Shown piece after piece: positions 1 through 9,433 of a stretch of DNA of 9,433 bases (its first letter is position 1; each line of letters begins with the position of its first letter). This DNA is from Tardiphaga sp. (GTDB taxonomy: Bacteria; Pseudomonadota; Alphaproteobacteria; Rhizobiales; Xanthobacteraceae). The DNA is taken from positions 1 through 9,433 of the forward strand of contig JAQGJF010000655.1 in the NCBI GenBank assembly GCA_028290765.1. Reading direction: 5' to 3'. Both the position numbers and the translations under genes were made by a program. The notes under the pieces are model-generated. The model was not told where the DNA came from. It saw only the letters and a list, made by a program, of their open reading frames with translations, and searched no databases.

Positions 1-175
1 CCGGAATCTGTAGAACGATTGATACGCCGCCACACCCATGGCGAAATAACATTCGCAATAAATTCCGCGTGAGCATGTTGTGATGATGCAGCGCAATGTT
101 TGCATCGTTCAGATACATTTGGAAACAAAACTGTTTCTTACGGATTTGTAATGATCGCGGCGATGTTCGGGTTAA
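1..175. other. Non-coding left edge, 3' of the transporter operon
   Basis: These bases lie downstream of the last permease gene, and I see no credible gene in them. The only ATG I followed here, at 39, meets a stop after three codons. A small AT-rich inverted repeat, GAAACA-AAAC-TGTTTC, sits at 122-137, within 55 bases of the permease stop. It could mark the 3' end of the operon transcript, but it lacks a GC-rich stem and a proper T-tract, so I do not call it a terminator. Whether the operon continues left of the window is unknown. A catabolic gene or an ATPase could lie there. Confidence 0.5.
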
Positions 176-1009
176 CTAAGATTTGACGGCTCCGCTGGAT
201 ATGCCGTCGATGAAACGCCGCTGCAGAACGATGAAGAAGAAGATCGTCGGCGCCGCTATCAGCGATGCCGTCGCCATCATTTCTGGCCATTGGCTGCCGT
301 ATCGGCCGCTCAACTGATAGAAACGTGCCGTGGCGGTGGCTGCGCTTTCGGTTTGCAGGAATGTGATCGAGATCAGGAATTCGTTCCAGGTATTGAGCGA
401 AACGATCAGCGCGACTGTCAACAGGCCCGGCGAGATCAACGGAAAAATGATCCGGCGGAAGATCTCGAAGTTTTCAGCGCCGTCGATCCTCGCCGCCTCT
501 TCCAGTTCGACAGGAATGGAAAGGATGTAGGTTCGCAGAAGAAATAGCGAGAATGGCGTGTAGATCGCCGCGTAAACAAACATCAACGCGAAATGATTGT
601 TGAGCAGGCCAAGTTTGGCAAACAGGAAATATAGCGGGAAGATGAACATCTGGACCGGCACGGTGGTCGTGGCCAGGAAATAAAGGCTGATGGCGATCCA
701 GCCGGGAACCCGGCGGCGGGCGATGACCCAGGCGGCGGGAGCCGCCACCAGACAAACGATGGTGACGGTGCCCACGGCAACCAGACAACTGTTCAGGAGC
801 GCCCGACCCAGACGGCTCTCGACCCAGACCTGTTTGTAGACGCCGAAATTAGGTGCCTCGGGAAATCCCAGGGGGCTGCTGAGGATCTCAAAATTGGTCC
901 TCAGACTGTTGAGGATCATCAACGCCAGCGGAAAGACGACGGAAAACGCCGCCGCGCCGAGAAAGATGTACGCGAAGAACTGCGAGGTCCTGCCCTGAAG
1001 CGGTGTCAT
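176..1009 (-). CDS. ABC sugar transporter permease, MalG/UgpE-like (CUT1)
   Basis: Inner-membrane permease of 277 aa for a carbohydrate-type (CUT1) ABC importer, the MalG-like partner of the upstream permease. Hydrophobic segments lie near residues 12-34, 70-95, 104-131, 138-160, 192-215 and 246-262, fitting the usual six helices. The cytoplasmic EAA loop that docks the ATPase is clear: EEAARIDGAENFEIFRR near 170-186, followed by IIFPLISP. The ATG at 1009 was chosen because MTPLQGRTSQ leads straight into the first helix, and because it overlaps the preceding permease stop as ATGA, typical of translational coupling. The frame stays open upstream to 1387, but that extension reads through the neighbour in another frame and has no permease character. 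It is the last gene of the operon in view. The family is certain and the substrate is not. Confidence 0.93.
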   Translation of the reverse strand: MTPLQGRTSQFFAYIFLGAAAFSVVFPLALMILNSLRTNFEILSSPLGFPEAPNFGVYKQVWVESRLGRALLNSCLVAVGTVTIVCLVAAPAAWVIARRRVPGWIAISLYFLATTTVPVQMFIFPLYFLFAKLGLLNNHFALMFVYAAIYTPFSLFLLRTYILSIPVELEEAARIDGAENFEIFRRIIFPLISPGLLTVALIVSLNTWNEFLISITFLQTESAATATARFYQLSGRYGSQWPEMMATASLIAAPTIFFFIVLQRRFIDGISSGAVKS

Positions 1010-1923
1010 GAGGCTTTTTCGGATTTGTACTGGATGCGCAGATAAACGGCGATCGCCATCAATCCGAGCATGCTCATCACCAGCGAATAGGCGGACGCCC
1101 TGCCCACGGCCATTTGCTGAAAAGCCGTCTTGTAGGCCAGCGTGCCGAGGACTTCGCTCGAAAAGCCCGGCCCGCCCTCGGTGAGAATATAGATCCAGTC
1201 GAATACCCGAAACGACCAGATGATCGACATCAGCAGCATGAACAGGACCGTCGGCAAAATCGTCGGCAGCAGTACGTAACGAAACGTCGCCGGATAGGAT
1301 GCACCGTCGACGACCGCGGCTTCGATGAGGGTGACATCGACCTGACGCAGGGCCGCGAAATAGATGATCGTCAGATAGCCCCACCAATGCCAGATATCGA
1401 CGAGCAGAACGCCGTATAACGATGTCGCAGGGTCACCCAGCGGGTTCGAGACCGATATCCCGACGCTCTGAAGCCAACCGATCACACCCGTTACCGGACT
1501 GTAGATCATGCCGCGCCAGATCTGGGCGAGGATGATGGTCGCGATCGTCACAGGCAGGAAAAACACCACCTGGAAAAACGTTCGCCCGACGCTGATGATC
1601 AGAAGCAGCGCCGCCGCGAACAGTGCAATGACCATCGGAAGCGTCACGAAGATGGTCGTAAAGATGAAATTATTCGATATCGCTTTCCAGAATCGCGCTT
1701 CGGCGAACAGGGCCCGGAAATTTTCCAGACCGATGAAATGCGGAACGCCCAGACCATTCCAGTCCGTGAACGACAGCAACAGCGTGGCGCCGACCGGAAA
1801 AGCGATGATCGAAAAACTCAGCAGCAGCGCCGGCACGACGAACAGCCAGGAAGAATCTCCATCCTGGCCGAACCACGCACGCGTGGTGCGATGAGCCTGC
1901 TTCTGCGTCGCGGCGTTGACCAT
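1006..1923 (-). CDS. ABC sugar transporter permease, MalF/UgpA-like (CUT1)
   Basis: Inner-membrane permease of 305 aa, the MalF/UgpA-type half of the translocation pore. The charged cytoplasmic N-terminus (to about residue 24) precedes a first helix near 26-52. Other hydrophobic segments lie around 86-112, 116-138, 170-192, 222-240 and 276-296. The EAA loop is EAAVVDGASYPATFRY at 201-216, followed by VLLPTILP. The signature LTEGGPGFSSEVL near 248-259 is typical of this family. The ATG at 1923 lies only 5 nt after the solute-binding protein stop and lacks a clear Shine-Dalgarno, so translation probably depends on coupling. Its stop overlaps the next permease start by 4 nt. Length is normal for the family. 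Confidence 0.94.
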   Translation of the reverse strand: MVNAATQKQAHRTTRAWFGQDGDSSWLFVVPALLLSFSIIAFPVGATLLLSFTDWNGLGVPHFIGLENFRALFAEARFWKAISNNFIFTTIFVTLPMVIALFAAALLLIISVGRTFFQVVFFLPVTIATIILAQIWRGMIYSPVTGVIGWLQSVGISVSNPLGDPATSLYGVLLVDIWHWWGYLTIIYFAALRQVDVTLIEAAVVDGASYPATFRYVLLPTILPTVLFMLLMSIIWSFRVFDWIYILTEGGPGFSSEVLGTLAYKTAFQQMAVGRASAYSLVMSMLGLMAIAVYLRIQYKSEKAS

Positions 1924-1928
1924 CGGCT

Positions 1929-3272
1929 TTAAGCGCGCGCCGGCAGTGTCTTTACCAATCCGTCCTTGAGGTCCTGCTGGAAAATTTCATTCACCTTGTC
2001 GCAGAACTGTTTCGCGGTGATCTGGCCGAGCCAGACCTCTTCCATGCCGCCCTTCATGTAGTCGTCGGTTCGCGCCGGCCAGAACGTCCACGGCGCATAA
2101 CCATAGGTCCTGGTTTGCAGCGCCTTTGTGGTCTCGAAGTTCAGCTTGACCGCCAAAGCCGTGACGCGATCCTGATTGCTCGCGGGCTCCGGCGGAGAAA
2201 CCAGCGGCGAATCCCACTCCCCTCCCCACGCTTCGGACATCGCGACGATGAATTTATGGTCGAGCAGTGCGTTGAGCACCTTGGCGGCGCCTTCGGGCAC
2301 CTGCGATGCCGCGTTGATGGCCAGATCCGCGCCTATCCCGAGCGGAAAAACCGGATAGGGAGCTGCTGAAGACAGTTTCGGGATCGGGACCCAATCCAGG
2401 TCCTGGCCGGTCTTCTTGAAAGTCTCGTCTACCCATTGAAAAGCCCAACTGCCTTGAAGCGCCATGCCGCTCTTGCCGGCGGCCATCAACGCAAAGGACT
2501 GCTGCATGCTCAGCGCAAAATATTTCTGTCCGCCGAAATAGCCTTTGTCCCACCAATCCTTAAGCAACTGGATCGATTCGACGAACGAGGGATCGTTCCA
2601 AGGCAGCTTCCCGGAAAGCGCCTGATAGACATTGTCCGGTCCCGCGCAGCAGCTGAACGACGCCCCGACATAGTGGCGATTGACGAAACGCGTTCCGGCA
2701 TTGCCGGCGGCAAGCGGCGTAATTCCCGCTTTGAGCATTTTGTCGGCGAGCGCTTCGAATTCCGCGCGCGTCGTCGGTGCGACCCATCCGTTCTTGGTGA
2801 ACAGCGTGCTGTTGTAATACAGCACCTGGGTTTCGGAGGTTTTGGGAATGGCGAAGATGGTGCCGTCATAGGTCCCCATGCCCAGCATGAATGGCACGAT
2901 CCGCTTGTCCCATTCGAACTTGCGCGCCAAATCGTTCAGCGGCAGCAGGCGCTTGGCGATCACGAAACGCTGGGTCCAGGACGGACCGTTGGTCAAAACG
3001 ATGTCCGGCCCGCTGCCGGCCGACAGCGCGACCAGCAATTGATCCGGAAGCGCGGCCCCCCGAAATTCGATGACCAGTTCATATTCGGACTGCGAAGCGT
3101 TGAATGGCTGCACCAGATGCTGGTCCAGCGCCGCCTGCTGGGCTGCCGTCGCACCTTCATACCACCACACCACGCGCTTCGGCGCGGCCTTGGCCTCGAT
3201 CGACACCAGGCCGGCCGCCGCGGCGGCCCCTGCCAGAACCGTTCTCCGGGTCATTTTTGAATCAAGGGCCAT
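1929..3272 (-). CDS. Periplasmic sugar-binding protein of the ABC importer (SBP family 1, UgpB/MalE-like)
   Basis: Extracellular solute-binding protein of 447 aa that delivers substrate to the two permeases. The N-terminus is a likely Tat signal: basic TRRTVLAG at 8-15, a run of alanines, and a probable cleavage site after SIEAKA (about residue 29). Export by Tat would mean the protein folds in the cytoplasm. Family 1 hallmarks include DGTIFAIPKTSETQVLYYN in the first lobe, followed by LFTKNGW and the SGMALQGSWAF stretch. A vicinal Cys pair (SCCAG) in the middle is less usual. The ATG at 3272 has a good Shine-Dalgarno (GGGAG at 3281-3285, 8-nt spacer). A second ATG at 3254, just before the RR motif, has none. 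It lies 27 nt after the ADP-ribosylglycohydrolase gene and 5 nt before the first permease. Many aromatic residues suit a sugar-like ligand, but the ligand is unknown. Confidence 0.93.
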   Translation of the reverse strand: MALDSKMTRRTVLAGAAAAAGLVSIEAKAAPKRVVWWYEGATAAQQAALDQHLVQPFNASQSEYELVIEFRGAALPDQLLVALSAGSGPDIVLTNGPSWTQRFVIAKRLLPLNDLARKFEWDKRIVPFMLGMGTYDGTIFAIPKTSETQVLYYNSTLFTKNGWVAPTTRAEFEALADKMLKAGITPLAAGNAGTRFVNRHYVGASFSCCAGPDNVYQALSGKLPWNDPSFVESIQLLKDWWDKGYFGGQKYFALSMQQSFALMAAGKSGMALQGSWAFQWVDETFKKTGQDLDWVPIPKLSSAAPYPVFPLGIGADLAINAASQVPEGAAKVLNALLDHKFIVAMSEAWGGEWDSPLVSPPEPASNQDRVTALAVKLNFETTKALQTRTYGYAPWTFWPARTDDYMKGGMEEVWLGQITAKQFCDKVNEIFQQDLKDGLVKTLPARA

Positions 3273-3299
3273 GCGTCGATCTCCCGAATCAATCCAACA

Positions 3300-4304
3300 T
3301 CAAATGCTGCGCGTTAAGGCCTGCATTTCGCTTTGCGCTTTCGAGCGCGCCACATCGGTCAGGCGGGCGGCAAGTTCAACCTGCGCCTGCCGGGAGTCCT
3401 TGGGCAGCAACTGGACCAGCGCGTCGCTGCCTGCCGATATGCCGCTCAGTGCGCCGCATATGCCGGCCGCCATGCACGCGATCGTGTCGGCGTCGCGCCC
3501 GAAATTGGCCCCATAGATCGCCGCTTGTTTGGGATCTCCCTTCGCCAGCCAGACGATGGCCAACGTTGCCGGCACCGTTTCGCGGCTATCGCACGCAATC
3601 GGCTTGCGGATCGTCTCCTGGTATTTTTGCCGGAAGGTTTTGTAGTCGGCTGTGGTCTGCGCGATATGCAGCGCCGATTGAATCAGCTCCAGCATTTCGG
3701 CGCCGCTCCACGGCTTGATGTAAGCCTGCGACGCCTGCAGAACGGAATCGACTGTCGCATCCCTGGCAAGGGCTTCGGCGACGGCCGCGGCGATGGCCGC
3801 CGCACCGTCCTGGCAAAACGCCACGTCGGTCACGTGAATGAGGCTGGCAATTTCCATCGCCTGCGCGGCCGCAGCGCGGGGATTGCCGGCATTGACGATG
3901 CCGACCGGGGAAATCGCCATGGCCGAACTCGAGCTCGGCATCGTTCCGGTCGCGATTGTCCGCGGCGTGTAGCCATAGCGGAGCTTAGCCGCCGCATGCA
4001 GAACGGAGGGAAAGAAGCGTCCGACCTTCTCGCCGAAGATCGCCTTGTGTTGCTCCCGCCACTGCACCGCCCAACTGTCGGCGTCGGCATAGCCATTGGT
4101 CCGGATCAGGGCAGCCGCAATCAGATCCCGCATGATCGAGTCGTCGGTGCCGTCTCCTTCGAAAGAGTCGACCCAGCCAAATTGTTTCTCGATCTGGGCC
4201 GGTTCCAGATTTTCAGTAGGCGTGCCCATGGCATCGCCGATGACCCCGAAGGCGAGACACGCGAAGGCGTGGCTCTCAAGCTTGCTGATTGCCTCAACGT
4301 CCAA
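3300..4304 (-). CDS. ADP-ribosylglycohydrolase-family (DraG/ARH-like) enzyme, first gene of the operon
   Basis: Cytoplasmic hydrolase-like protein of 334 aa in the DraG/ARH superfamily, which removes ADP-ribose from proteins or cleaves related ribosides with a two-metal (Mg/Mn) centre. The metal-site motifs are visible: GDAMGTPTE at 23-31, DGTDDS at 51-56 (Thr53, Asp54, Asp55), and the C-terminal GRDADTIACMAAG from 269 (Asp271, Asp273, Thr274). The centre therefore looks intact, although GRDADT departs from the usual GGDTDT. The start is a TTG at 4304-4302, with Shine-Dalgarno GGGAGG at 4315-4310 and a 5-nt spacer. Upstream in-frame ATGs, up to 4475, lie in or above the promoter and operator and would not be transcribed. 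The gene leads a LacI-controlled sugar importer operon, so I infer that it acts on the imported compound or a derivative, perhaps an N-glycoside. Classic DraG control of nitrogenase is less likely here. Confidence 0.88.
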   Translation of the reverse strand: MDVEAISKLESHAFACLAFGVIGDAMGTPTENLEPAQIEKQFGWVDSFEGDGTDDSIMRDLIAAALIRTNGYADADSWAVQWREQHKAIFGEKVGRFFPSVLHAAAKLRYGYTPRTIATGTMPSSSSAMAISPVGIVNAGNPRAAAAQAMEIASLIHVTDVAFCQDGAAAIAAAVAEALARDATVDSVLQASQAYIKPWSGAEMLELIQSALHIAQTTADYKTFRQKYQETIRKPIACDSRETVPATLAIVWLAKGDPKQAAIYGANFGRDADTIACMAAGICGALSGISAGSDALVQLLPKDSRQAQVELAARLTDVARSKAQSEMQALTRSI

Positions 4305-4309
4305 GCGAA

Positions 4310-4315
4310 CCTCCC
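4310..4315 (-). promoter_or_regulatory. Shine-Dalgarno that fixes the TTG start of the hydrolase gene
   Basis: On the minus strand GGGAGG is followed by TTCGC and then TTG. This near-perfect ribosome site with 5-nt spacing decides the start at 4304. No ATG or GTG competes at this distance. Confidence 0.8.
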
Positions 4316-4323
4316 GTTTATTG

Positions 4324-4352
4324 TTGTATTTTTGTAAGCGCTTACTTATGAT
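4324..4352 (+). promoter_or_regulatory. Possible lacI promoter sharing the operator
   Basis: TATGATCATA (4347-4356) is itself a palindrome, so its plus-strand reading also gives TATGAT (4347-4352). A weak -35, TTGTAT (4324-4329), stands 17 bp upstream. The operator would lie exactly in the spacer of this promoter, giving negative autoregulation. The -35 matches consensus at only three positions, and the leader to lacI would be about 120 nt, so the call is tentative. Confidence 0.35.
4334..4345. promoter_or_regulatory. LacI/GalR-type operator (perfect 12-bp palindrome GTAAGCGCTTAC)
   Basis: GTAAGCGCTTAC is a perfect palindrome with the central CG typical of LacI/GalR-family operators, close in form to GalR or CcpA sites. 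It covers the predicted transcription start of the minus-strand operon (about 4344) and lies just inside the start of the hydrolase gene. Binding here would block initiation. The adjacent LacI-family gene is the obvious ligand. Its recognition helix has Ala at the second contact position and Arg at the sixth (STATVSR), as in regulators that read GTAA-N-CG-N-TTAC sites. Confidence 0.88.
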
Positions 4353-4378
4353 CATAGAAGCACGCGCCGTCCTGTCAA
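4351..4378 (-). promoter_or_regulatory. Promoter of the hydrolase-transporter operon
   Basis: On the minus strand, TTGACA (4378-4373, perfect -35) is followed by a 16-bp spacer and TATGAT (4356-4351, one mismatch to the -10 consensus). The predicted start of transcription near 4344 falls in the GTAAGCGCTTAC operator. The untranslated leader would be about 40 nt, ending at the TTG start. Confidence 0.82.
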
Positions 4379-4430
4379 TGCAGATGACGGAAAATGCTTC
4401 TGTGCTGGCTCTTAACGGCAACCCCTTGTT

Positions 4431-4442
4431 GTATACGCTTTC
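4431..4442. promoter_or_regulatory. Degenerate second LacI-type operator
   Basis: GTATACGCTTTC matches the main operator GTAAGCGCTTAC at 9 of 12 positions and keeps the central CGCTT. It lies 97 bp from the main site, centre to centre, and 36 bp before the lacI start. It could be an auxiliary site for looping or autorepression, or chance similarity. Confidence 0.35.
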
Positions 4443-4478
4443 ATTCACAGTCCCGTTTGGGGCGACCATAGCCAAGAC

Positions 4479-5534
4479 ATGAAGAGCCTCGACTCGATCG
4501 CAGCCGTAGAGACACCCCGGGTCGCAACCGCCAGCGAAGTTGCCGAGCTCGCGGGCGTTTCGACGGCGACGGTATCCCGGGTGTTCAACAAGGTCGGCAA
4601 CATCAGCGCCAGCCGCGTCGACCGGGTTTTAGCGGCCGCCTCGCAACTGGGTTACGTTCCGCATGCCGCCGCCCGAACCCTGGCATCGCGCCGCTCAAGA
4701 CTGGTGGGCGCCATCATTCCCACCCTCGAGAACCCGAACTTCAGCCGTGCCGTCGAGGCGCTGCAGGGAATCCTGACCGACAACGGCTACACATTGCTGC
4801 TGGGCAGTTCAGGCTATGACGGCCAGAAGGAAAGCCAGCAGGTTCGCGCCCTGGTCTCGCAAGGCGTCGATGCGATCGTCTGGGTCGGAAATCTGCATCA
4901 ACCCGAAACCATCGAATTTCTGCATCGATACAAGGTTCCCTTCGTCAACATATGGGTCAACGACAGCGAACATCCGTGCATCGGCTTCGACAACAAAGCC
5001 GCGGGGCGGATCGTAGCCGACTATCTCCTGGATCTCGGCCATCGAAACATCGGCGTGATCGCCGGCGTGACCCACAACAACGATCGCGCCTCGTTGCGCG
5101 TTTCGGGTATTCGCGAGGCGCTGGAAAAGCGCGGTGTGGCGCTTCCGAATGAGATGATGATCGAGCGGCCCTATCGGATCGTTGAAGGACAAATCGGTTT
5201 TCGGGCGCTGATGGAGTCACGCCCCAAGCCGACGGCCGTCATTTGCGGGAACGACATCCTGGCGTTCGGCGCCTTGCTGGAAGCCGGTCGGCTTGGTTTT
5301 TCGGTGCCCGCCGACATGTCGATCGCCGGTTTCGACGATCTCGAATTTTCCGGCGCGCTCAGTCCTTCGTTGACGACGATCCGCATCGACGCCGAGCAGA
5401 TTGGCATTCGAACGGCCGAGCATATTTTGCGTCTGATGGCCGGGATGCCGGTCACCAAATCCACCACCATCCCGACGAGCCTGATCGTCCGCGGTAGTAC
5501 AGCGCCTCCTGCCCAACGGGAACCGCAGCCCTAA
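4479..5534 (+). CDS. LacI-family transcriptional repressor of the uptake operon
   Basis: Cytoplasmic DNA-binding regulator of 351 aa. The N-terminal helix-turn-helix spans about residues 17-37 (TASEVAELAGVSTATVSRVF). The hinge follows near 58-70 (LGYVPHAAARTLAS), and a periplasmic-binding-protein-like sensor domain runs to the end. The sensor shows the family's VGAIIPTLENPNFSRAVEALQ, CIGFDNKAAGRIVADYLLDLGH and AVICGNDILAFGALLEAGRLG stretches, and the GFDDLEFS motif. It is divergent from the hydrolase-transporter operon, with a perfect palindrome between them, so it most likely represses that operon until it binds the imported solute or a product. The start at 4479 has no clear Shine-Dalgarno. 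The roughly 15 residues before the helix-turn-helix are longer than usual, so a slightly later start remains possible. No terminator with a T-tract directly follows the TAA. Confidence 0.93.
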   Translation: MKSLDSIAAVETPRVATASEVAELAGVSTATVSRVFNKVGNISASRVDRVLAAASQLGYVPHAAARTLASRRSRLVGAIIPTLENPNFSRAVEALQGILTDNGYTLLLGSSGYDGQKESQQVRALVSQGVDAIVWVGNLHQPETIEFLHRYKVPFVNIWVNDSEHPCIGFDNKAAGRIVADYLLDLGHRNIGVIAGVTHNNDRASLRVSGIREALEKRGVALPNEMMIERPYRIVEGQIGFRALMESRPKPTAVICGNDILAFGALLEAGRLGFSVPADMSIAGFDDLEFSGALSPSLTTIRIDAEQIGIRTAEHILRLMAGMPVTKSTTIPTSLIVRGSTAPPAQREPQP

Positions 5535-5572
5535 CCTAATCCTTCCCTCTGACCAGCTGGCAACCCTTATGA

Positions 5573-5590
5573 AGTGAACATTTATTCACT
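5573..5590. repeat. Operator-like inverted repeat AGTGAA-N6-TTCACT
   Basis: Two perfect 6-bp arms are separated by six AT-rich bases. With one bulged A the similarity extends outward to ATGA and TCAT. The size and AT-rich spacer resemble a dimeric repressor site more than a terminator, since no T-tract follows. It lies 39 bp after the lacI stop. No cognate regulator gene is in the window. Confidence 0.4.
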
Positions 5591-5677
5591 CATATGAGCG
5601 CCGCATGCGAATCGCGCATGTGTTTCTGTCGAAGTCACTGGGAAATTTCATCCGAAATCTCAAAGACTTCTGCCCAC

Positions 5678-5708
5678 CGGAGCACGGAACCCGGTCTTTT
5701 CCGCTCCG
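5678..5708. repeat. Stem-loop CGGAGC/GCTCCG with inner GGAA/TTCC
   Basis: CGGAGC (5678-5683) pairs with GCTCCG (5703-5708), and GGAA (5686-5689) pairs with TTCC (5699-5702). This leaves a 2-nt bulge and a 9-nt loop. An alternative pairing, ACCGG (5676-5680) with CCGGT (5691-5695), is followed by CTTTT and looks like a weak terminator. Either could end the lacI transcript. The two structures are mutually exclusive. Confidence 0.4.
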
Positions 5709-5717
5709 CCAAAAACA

Positions 5718-5735
5718 TGTCGTTTGTTTACGACA
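5718..5735. repeat. Inverted repeat TGTCGT-N6-ACGACA
   Basis: Two perfect 6-bp arms around TTGTTT. This is suitable as a protein-binding site or small hairpin, with no T-tract. It is one of four palindromes within about 190 bp. Confidence 0.35.
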
Positions 5736-5750
5736 AGATCATGATTACAT

Positions 5751-5760
5751 AGATTAATCT
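5751..5760. repeat. Palindrome AGATTAATCT
   Basis: A perfect 10-bp palindrome. A related half, GGTTAATC, occurs at 5830-5837. It could be a regulator site upstream of the DUF1127 gene, but its length allows chance. Confidence 0.25.
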
Positions 5761-5963
5761 GAGGCGATCCAAGGCCACCCAGATGACCGCCCGCAGCCAT
5801 CGACGTTAATTTATGCAAGGGCGCCGAAAGGTTAATCATTTCTTGCCAGTGCCATGCGATAAACGCCTAGCTGCATCGCAACATTTGGACTGCTGCACTG
5901 CGATAAGATCACCTATATTCATTTCAACGATGAGGCTGCCTCCAAGGGCTGAATCGTCAAGAT

Positions 5964-5970
5964 AAGGAGA
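5964..5970 (+). promoter_or_regulatory. Strong Shine-Dalgarno of the DUF1127 gene
   Basis: AAGGAGA lies 6 nt before the ATG at 5977. It is the strongest ribosome site in the window and the main support for the short gene being real. Confidence 0.85.
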
Positions 5971-5976
5971 CTACCC

Positions 5977-6129
5977 ATGTTGCTCTCGTTCATCCGCATG
6001 ATCCAGGCGTTCCGCGACTATCAGCGCAATGTCAGCGAGCTTTCGCAGCTCAGCGATCGTGAATTGGCCGATATCGGCCTCGATCGCTCGGACATTCCGC
6101 GCGTCGCCGCCGGTTCCTACAACGGCTGA
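5977..6129 (+). CDS. DUF1127 family mini-protein (50 aa)
   Basis: Small basic/acidic protein of 50 aa. The second half, LSQLSDRELADIGLDRSDIP (residues 22-41), is the DUF1127 (YjiS-like) signature, in which LSDRELADIGL and R-DI are nearly invariant. The first half forms an amphipathic helix (SFIRMIQAFRDYQRN). Members are abundant in alphaproteobacteria. Studied examples act as small RNA-associated or regulatory proteins in stress and in carbon or phosphate metabolism, so a post-transcriptional role is plausible, though not shown here. The ATG at 5977 has a strong Shine-Dalgarno (AAGGAGA, 6-nt spacer). The gene stands alone, between the regulator and trmFO, with its own hairpins at the 3' end, and is probably monocistronic. 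It is too short for common ORF cut-offs. Confidence 0.92.
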   Translation: MLLSFIRMIQAFRDYQRNVSELSQLSDRELADIGLDRSDIPRVAAGSYNG

Positions 6130-6144
6130 TTTGATTCAGCCGTT
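6121..6144 (+). repeat. Hairpin overlapping the DUF1127 stop codon
   Basis: AACGGCTGA (6121-6129) pairs perfectly over 9 bp with TCAGCCGTT (6136-6144) around a 6-nt loop. The left arm is made of the last two sense codons and the TGA stop. No T-tract follows, so it is more likely a 3'-end stabiliser than a terminator. Confidence 0.65.
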
Positions 6145-6155
6145 GACGGACGGAT

Positions 6156-6179
6156 AGCGCCCGCTCTTTTGCGGGCGTT
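6156..6179 (+). terminator. Probable intrinsic terminator after the DUF1127 gene
   Basis: CGCCCGC (6158-6164) and GCGGGCG (6171-6177) form a GC-rich 7-bp stem around TCTTTT, extendable by A-T and G-T pairs. The following bases are TTGTCGT, a poor T-tract, as often in high-GC alphaproteobacteria. It would separate the DUF1127 gene from trmFO. Confidence 0.65.
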
Positions 6180-6199
6180 GTCGTATCGGCGACGATAGC

Positions 6200-6248
6200 T
6201 GTTCAAGGCAAGTTCCTGTTTAAGCCAGGTTCTTGTTCAAGGACCTTG
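6200..6248 (+). repeat. Repeat cluster in the trmFO leader
   Basis: TGTTCAAGG occurs twice (6200-6208 and 6234-6242, 34 bp apart). Between them, AAGTTCCTG (6210-6218) and CAGGTTCTT (6226-6234) can form a stem with a symmetric TT/TT internal loop. CAAGGACCTTG (6238-6248) is an 11-bp odd palindrome. These lie 55-103 bases before the trmFO ATG. They could be a regulator-binding array or leader structure. Confidence 0.4.
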
Positions 6249-6302
6249 TTCCGATGCGATCTGGATTCCACTTGGCCTGAAAACGCGCTACCTGTGGCGC
6301 CC

Positions 6303-8907: not shown

Positions 8908-9433
8908 CTACCGGCGGAATGCTGGTGACCGCGACGCCCGCCACAACGTCCACAGGATCCGAAAACGTGACGTAACCCGCGGCATGAACGGATCATTGTC
9001 CGCGCGCGCCATGCGCTTGAGGTCGCGCTCGACCAGCGTCAGCGGCAGAAACACCGCCCTCGCCTCCGGCGCAATGCCAGGCAACAGCGTCCACGCGGTT
9101 TTAAGATGCGCGCGAGCCTCGCCGATCAATTCGTCCAGCGCCGCGCGCAAGGGCGGCGTCTCCTTGCCGGCGAACACCTCTTCCATGCCGCTACCGTGCC
9201 GTTCCAGCAATTGCAGCGGTACGAACAATTGCCGCCGCGACGCATCCAGCGGCAGCGCCGCGATCGCCCGGGCGATGCCCTGGGCCAGACCGGCATGACG
9301 CGCGAGATGATCGATCTCGTCGGATGGCGTCCCGATGATCTGTGCGCCGAGCGTAAACAACGTCGACGCCGTATCGTTGATGTAGCCCTCCAGCGCCGCC
9401 ATGGTCGGCATCGGATCGTTGTACAGATCGAAT
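8908..9433 (-). CDS. Squalene/phytoene synthase-family protein, NDUFAF6-like (C-terminal part)
   Basis: The frame is open to the right edge of the window, so the N-terminus and true start lie outside. About 175 residues are visible. FDLYNDPMPTMAALEGYINDTAS begins the visible part, as in trans-isoprenyl-diphosphate synthase (SQS/PSY) homologues. However, the second Asp-rich metal motif expected after the family's LGxAxQxxNILRD block is absent. In its place stand HAGLAQGIARAIAALP and RRQLFVPLQLLERHG, which match the pattern of the mitochondrial complex I assembly factor NDUFAF6 (GxAQGI, LxAxP, RRxxFLP, HG). A role in respiratory complex I assembly is therefore more likely than carotenoid or hopanoid synthesis. 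This is inferred from family resemblance only. The C-terminus (PRVTSRFRILWTLWRA) is basic and hydrophobic. The gene is convergent with the kinase-like gene, 56 nt apart. An ATG at 9411 is internal. Confidence 0.85.
   Translation of the reverse strand, partial: FDLYNDPMPTMAALEGYINDTASTLFTLGAQIIGTPSDEIDHLARHAGLAQGIARAIAALPLDASRRQLFVPLQLLERHGSGMEEVFAGKETPPLRAALDELIGEARAHLKTAWTLLPGIAPEARAVFLPLTLVERDLKRMARADNDPFMPRVTSRFRILWTLWRASRSPAFRR

Follow-up and report, generated by a model that had tools for sequence, protein, structure and literature searches.

The stretch of DNA analysed here, referred to as the window, comprises 9,433 nucleotides of contig JAQGJF010000655.1 from Tardiphaga sp., a soil bacterium. 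It carries a gene for a hydrolase of the ADP-ribosylglycohydrolase family (PF03747), here named ARH334, at the head of an operon whose other genes encode the solute-binding protein and the permease pair of an ATP-binding cassette (ABC) importer, with a LacI-family regulator encoded divergently. Hydrolase and importer recur together in related bacteria, at times next to enzymes that break down nucleosides, and this points to a so far undescribed means of living on compounds that contain ribose. The features of the locus are as follows.

4479 to 5534, plus strand: LacI-family regulator, divergent (Pfam LacI and Peripla_BP_3)
4430 to 4443, no strand: second, weaker operator-like site (3 mismatches)
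4351 to 4378, minus strand: TTGACA-16-TATGAT, a predicted sigma-70-type promoter-like site for the hydrolase and importer genes (11/12 matches)
4333 to 4346, no strand: LacI-type operator-like palindrome TGTAAGCGCTTACT, directly downstream of the -10 element (1 mismatch to TGTAAGCGCTTACA)
4310 to 4315, minus strand: GGGAGG, ribosome-binding-site-like, preceding the TTG start (read from the sequence)
3300 to 4304, minus strand: PF03747 hydrolase ARH334, 334 amino acids, operon gene 1, TTG start
1929 to 3272, minus strand: extracellular solute-binding protein (Pfam SBP_bac_1)
1006 to 1923, minus strand: importer permease F (Pfam BPD_transp_1; nearest named models GlcT/UgpA, below cut-offs)
176 to 1009, minus strand: importer permease G (Pfam BPD_transp_1; nearest named models GlcU/UgpE, below cut-offs)

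Read from the LacI side, the minus-strand genes run hydrolase, solute-binding protein, permease F and permease G, with 27 bases between the first two, 5 bases between the binding protein and permease F, and an overlap of 4 bases between the permeases. A preliminary description made from the letters of the sequence had given this gene content, order, tight spacing and divergent LacI, all of which Pfam and the junctions bear out. It also rightly placed the hydrolase first in the operon. The open reading frame (ORF) listed by program for the hydrolase ran to 4475; that longer version was rejected and the start put at TTG 4304, because GGGAGG precedes this codon and close relatives start at the same residue. 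SBP_bac_1 and two BPD_transp_1 permeases are the content of the CUT1 class of importers, a label taken from the nearest named models (GlcT/U, UgpA/E, NgcE), all under cut-off. No UgpC-type ATPase was found in the window, which ends 175 bases past permease G; UgpC comes after the cluster in many relatives, and none adjoins it in the five Bradyrhizobium-genus loci. The N-terminus of the binding protein (3200 to 3272, minus strand) reads MALDSKMTRRTVLAGAAAAAG, which we take to be a twin-arginine-like export signal, and TRRQIV or KRRTFI is found near the starts of the binding proteins of two other loci, L002 and L139.

Conserved linkage of the hydrolase to LacI and the importer, which had been set as a check on the operon, was found, and negative controls lacked it. 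Nine hydrolase relatives with known surroundings (52–84% identical) were compared, and eight have an importer alongside, CUT1 in six and PotD-type in two; the ninth, L001 (84% identical), shows no importer on a contig of only 3.6 kb. In all five Bradyrhizobium-genus loci the permeases and binding protein diverge from a block of LacI, a second hydrolase of ~716 amino acids and the hydrolase itself, while a Microvirga ossetica plasmid carries, in order, the binding protein, permeases, UgpC, an oxidoreductase, the hydrolase (52%) and a galactonate dehydratase. In genomes G005 and G1013 the hydrolase (60% and 58%, respectively) lies within a PotD-type importer operon that includes its ATPase, and family searches around these two genomes added no locus, each returning 1 of 4 genomes, the starting one. 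The hydrolase gene is rare among the few candidates scored per genome: relatives at 71–75% identity occur in at least 5 of 265 Bradyrhizobium-genus genomes, and the wider draws gave at least 2 of 397 genomes for the order and at least 2 of 385 for the class, each including the Bradyrhizobium-genus genome G001. Such whole-genome protein searches scored the best 5, 8, 5 or 4 candidates per genome, so that the counts are lower bounds.

The same partnership is seen from the importer. Homologues of the binding protein (E <= 1e-40) number at least 25, in at least 23 of 397 genomes of one order, and in 25 of 25 cases a related hydrolase, called by homology to the 716-amino-acid PF03747 protein, is encoded within 3.6 kb of the match (24 loci, L126 to L149, and L002). 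The usual order is LacI, binding protein, permeases and 716-type hydrolase, often followed by UgpC; the binding proteins of L147 to L149 are just 31–33% identical, with the permeases and a second 716-type gene in the adjoining stretches L150 to L152. These 24 loci are mutually related and hence not independent events. Among plasmid records, a hydrolase gene of this kind lies near eight of nine binding-protein hits (E <= 1e-40), two of the eight being from one strain; in the remaining record, Frondihabitans L018, no PF03747 gene is annotated within 10 kb of the binding-protein homologue.

One of those eight plasmid hits, in Mycolicibacterium, has LacI, hydrolase, binding protein, permeases, a ribokinase and UgpC, in that order. 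Among more distant versions, Ensifer, Sinorhizobium, Phyllobacterium and Nitratireductor encode a small and a large hydrolase with LacI, permeases, binding protein and UgpC, Pseudochrobactrum the small hydrolase only, and Enterobacter LacI, large hydrolase and binding protein. In Deinococcus the order is GH2, binding protein, permease, RICIN protein, large hydrolase and trehalase-family gene, and in Agrobacterium (L021) a large hydrolase precedes UgpC with no permeases annotated beside them. Two hydrolases stand together in 12 loci. Some of these loci have peculiarities of their own. In L021 (Agrobacterium sp. 33MFTa1.1) an IS6 transposase lies at 9234–9947 between an annotated polyamine-type binding-protein gene and the 716-type hydrolase and UgpC, and this is perhaps a disrupted or rearranged importer locus. 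In Rhizobium sp. CC-CFT758 (L022, 10001–14949) the matches to the binding protein, permease G and the 716-type hydrolase are each split in two, through either decay or sequencing errors. The Enterobacter locus (L020, CP103578.1, 332576–354666) sits in a 517-kb record typed IncHI2A, with chromosome-like surroundings (fur, fldA, glnS, nag).

PF03747 proteins exceed the cut-off in 21 of 149 genomes of the family. Neither the 24 other PF03747 loci outside G001 (stretches of 6.8–17 kb) nor 16 stretches at pre-picked positions in the same genomes contained a homologue of the binding protein or permeases (E <= 1e-10), which shows that PF03747 membership as such brings no importer along. The 24 control loci gave no match to the hydrolase queries, and so represent remote family members. 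Hits to ABC ATPases (4 of the 24, vs 7 of the 16) were uninformative. As the 24 importer-found loci are related, the exchange of a CUT1 for a PotD importer and the differing gene orders are a better argument for function than the number of loci. Among the matches listed in open-access literature, with subscription papers mostly outside this scope, there was no published description of the hydrolase-importer system, and the earlier remark that no substrate has been described holds within the same limits.

The hydrolase of the window scores 133.3 bits against the PF03747 profile, far over the curated cut-off of 26.2. Its dinuclear metal site is intact, as first described, with E31, T53-D54-D55 and D271-x-D273-T274 making up the E...TDD...DxDT motif of ADP-ribosylhydrolases (PMC6309922, in excerpt), and the motif is kept in 27 of 27 aligned rows, with a single N in place of D55 as the only departure. 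Structure prediction gives the fold of ARH3 and DraG, and by alignment H157 is the retained pyrophosphate-contacting histidine. In 27 of 27 aligned members Ser/Thr takes the place of the Asn-Gly motif that lies near the distal ribose and the pyrophosphate, and the scores for the NCBIfam equivalogs DraG (22.6 of 337.05 bits) and Tri1 (24.3 of 490 bits) are far below their cut-offs. The enzyme is best seen as catabolic and not as a regulator of protein ADP-ribosylation. The large sister hydrolase (~716 amino acids, also PF03747) was modelled poorly in its catalytic half (predicted local distance difference test, pLDDT, of 68), and only matches of its C-terminal beta-sandwich domains were used, loosely: galactocerebrosidase, galectins and CBM66 (E 1e-7 to 9e-7), the last with a template-modelling (TM) score on target of 0.69–0.76.

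The promoter and operator noted in the preliminary description are both present as predicted sites. Promoter-like sites are no more frequent than chance in positions 1 to 6300 (3 vs 2.4 +/- 1.5 in shuffles). Given where palindrome TGTAAGCGCTTACT lies, a repressor bound there would presumably prevent initiation. The window holds two matches to the operator pattern against 0.14 expected, and 1 of 200 shuffles reached two or more, a flattering figure since the pattern was picked after the site had been seen. Its recurrence at two other loci, L013 and L099, is better support. The LacI proteins of these loci, which adjoin members of the same hydrolase family, are 52% and 49% identical to that of the window, respectively, while eight LacI proteins of other loci are 25–34% identical. 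L013 has three matches, a number reached in 0 of 200 shuffles: one upstream of the importer operon (11877), one by an MR_MLE gene on the other side (12169), and one within a gene (7187). L099 has two, a number reached in 5 of 200 shuffles; they lie at 5850 and 5979, in the gap that separates LacI from the importer operon. No site was found in L009 and only a chance-level one in L016, as would be expected if their regulators differ from the window LacI; the regulators adjoining these two clusters are not close relatives of it.

Taken with its neighbours elsewhere, the operon most likely imports a riboside or nucleoside-like compound that is cleaved in the cytoplasm, and we give a probability of about 50% to a LacI-controlled uptake-and-cleavage unit for a riboside or nucleoside-like glycoside. 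LacI would hold the promoter shut until the solute or its product binds to it. The binding protein would pass the small glycoside to the permeases, driven by an ATPase whose gene would lie past the end of the window or elsewhere. Once the glycoside is in the cytoplasm, two metal ions of the hydrolase would hold its ribosyl cis-diol while the glycosidic bond is cut, and the released ribose and aglycone could serve as a carbon or nitrogen source. A riboside is favoured because some loci encode a nucleoside hydrolase, a ribokinase-like kinase or a uridine-phosphorylase-like protein, and because distant clusters combine a nucleoside permease, hydrolase and kinase. In L099 a RihA-like nucleoside hydrolase adjoins LacI, and in L013 a match to it lies further along the LacI side; both loci with relatives of the window LacI and similar operators thus carry a nucleoside hydrolase. 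L147 to L149 encode, in a row, SIS, PfkB, a nucleoside hydrolase (RihC-like in L149), a 716-type hydrolase and a PNP_UDP_1 protein most similar to uridine phosphorylase. A ribokinase-like PfkB stands beside LacI in L133, L134 and L142, and another occurs in L017. Nucleoside hydrolase, phosphorylase and PfkB hits were found in 0 of 40 control loci, and it is this contrast with the controls that counts, the queries having been drawn from the system loci. Together, L147 to L149 and L150 to L152 form a cluster of two 716-type hydrolases, nucleoside hydrolase, uridine-phosphorylase-like protein, PfkB, SIS, CUT1 importer and LacI, which is probably the most promising place to look for the substrate.

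The earlier idea that the enzyme cleaves an imported glycoside or riboside is partly supported: nucleoside genes at some loci speak for a riboside, and several loci point to different sugars. A number of observations weigh against a riboside. The window itself has no nucleoside hydrolase, nucleoside-phosphorylase-like or PfkB gene; nucleoside hydrolases occur in just 5 of 46 distinct loci and PfkB hits in 10 of 46 (one weak, two in yegTUV-like clusters), most loci having no nucleoside gene; and the neighbouring kinases and nucleoside hydrolases score below the named NCBIfam cut-offs. L016 has a galactonate-dehydratase model match over cut-off (332.5 vs 311, though 2 of the 40 control loci have dehydratase-family hits too), a neighbour family with a GH65 scanned member is present in 6 of the 24 loci L126 to L149, and L019 encodes GH2 and carries a gene annotated as trehalase-family. 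The best-scoring named relatives of the binding protein are chito-oligosaccharide binders, which are also among the nearest solved binding proteins. It is possible, if less probable, that the same unit takes up a glycoside without ribose, such as a plant or microbial oligosaccharide, and that the PF03747 enzyme is an ordinary cytosolic glycosidase whose substrates would be, for instance, galactosides or different cis-diol sugars. Importers of this family take up oligosaccharides, the beta-sandwich ends of the sister hydrolase resemble those that glycosidases often have, and L013 adds MR_MLE and DapA-family genes to the sugar genes above. This would leave the nucleoside hydrolases of five loci unexplained, together with the nucleoside-phosphorylase-like gene in three of them; the sugar-catabolism genes vary by locus and may in part be members of adjacent clusters. 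According to excerpts of PMC6309922, moreover, the ARH enzymes known so far act on ribosyl groups. Some of the neighbouring genes form sets of their own. In L013 (12044–17174) the LacI relative stands with an MR_MLE dehydratase, a DapA-family aldolase and the nucleoside hydrolase match, as well as what we take to be an SMP-30-like gene, a possible sugar-acid route. Genes for a coenzyme A (CoA)-transferase and a CoA-ester lyase follow the cluster in two loci (L024, 11150–13209; L028, 11142–13192), and a CitE-like gene lies near the L002 cluster (59–748). An acyl or hydroxy-acid moiety, hinted at by CoA-transferase and CoA-ester-lyase genes beside clusters, was dropped for lack of wider recurrence, as were the hydroxypyruvate-isomerase and tartronate-semialdehyde-reductase genes beside L012.

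A more specific form of riboside uptake, which we consider doubtful, is that the hydrolase has turned catabolic for imported disaccharide nucleosides or alpha-nucleosides, which would allow bacteria to live on the debris of ADP-ribosylation. Ribosyl-adenosine, as dephosphorylated poly(ADP-ribose) debris, would offer an alpha-1''-2' ribosyl bond of the kind ARH3 cuts; alpha-ribazole from cobamides would be another example. The importer would suit a disaccharide-sized solute, the ARH enzyme would cut the ribosyl-ribose bond, the bond between base and ribose would fall to a nucleoside hydrolase or phosphorylase, and a ribokinase-like kinase would take the ribose. Very improbable is a DraG-like role, in which the hydrolase would remove ADP-ribose from an importer protein or regulator and thereby turn uptake on. 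The fold and metal site are as in ARH3, ARH1 and DraG, and H157 is kept, but the distance from the DraG and Tri1 cut-offs and the altered Asn-Gly motif speak against it, as do the exchange of importer type while the hydrolase stays and the pairing of hydrolases. We find it least probable of all that the solute is ADP-ribose itself, NAD fragments or ADP-glucose-like nucleotide sugars. A doubly charged solute is unusual for this importer type, and the Asn-Gly motif is again changed. A neighbour family whose scanned member is a calcineurin-like phosphoesterase, present in 4 of 31 loci (L133, L134, L136, L142), and the NUDIX proteins annotated in L022 and L025 would agree with such a solute, but the four loci are closely similar and the NUDIX genes are some kilobases away from the clusters. 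Also in favour of such a solute are PF03747 family chemistry and YegW, the yegTUV regulator, reported in excerpts of PMC10819704 as responsive to ADP-glucose. The phosphoesterase ORF trails or overlaps the cluster end, and the named models that it matches best are anti-phage models, with scores far below cut-off; its presence leaves room for a phosphorylated solute.

To the right of LacI are trmFO, a PRK09188-type kinase and a partial SQS_PSY-family gene, which are taken as unrelated to the importer unit. The 711-base gap between LacI and trmFO (5535–6245) has two terminator-like hairpins (5602–5622, 5735–5718) and no Rfam match. Nowhere in the window was there an Rfam match at gathering score or a tRNA.

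PF03747 enzymes are read almost automatically as ADP-ribosylation erasers, while here one branch is tied to nutrient import across many genomes of a single alphaproteobacterial order, and also in a small number of records from Actinomycetota, Enterobacterales and Deinococcota. ARH3, ARH1 and DraG are 15–20% identical to the window hydrolase, which differs in its Ser/Thr for Asn-Gly and in an operon context that looks catabolic. MJ1187 of Methanocaldococcus (1t5j) is named in the PDB only as a hypothetical protein/ribosylglycohydrolase. What separates the window from LacI-regulated sugar importer operons is the PF03747 hydrolase, which belongs to no glycosidase family that we know of. A local LacI with a divergent operon is common to both, as for AglR and ThuR of Rhizobiales (PMC4052901, in excerpt). 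A close parallel in plan is E. coli yegTUV, with similar Pantoea and Salmonella clusters, where the genes for a PF03747 enzyme, a solute importer and a regulator likewise stand together. The Pantoea and Salmonella plasmids have a nucleoside permease, hydrolase, PfkB-type kinase and GntR in that order, their PF03747 proteins being ~27–32% identical to that of the window, and from gene order we take two such loci (L027 and L030) to be yegTUV counterparts. The window differs in having an ABC importer and LacI, and none of its scanned genes is a nucleoside permease, PfkB kinase or GntR regulator. The functions of the yegTUV genes were still called unknown in 2024 (PMC10819704, in excerpt). If imported ribosides are indeed cleaved, many automatic annotations would be misleading, the binding protein would offer a simple handle for finding the substrate, and the function of E. 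coli yegTUV would become testable.

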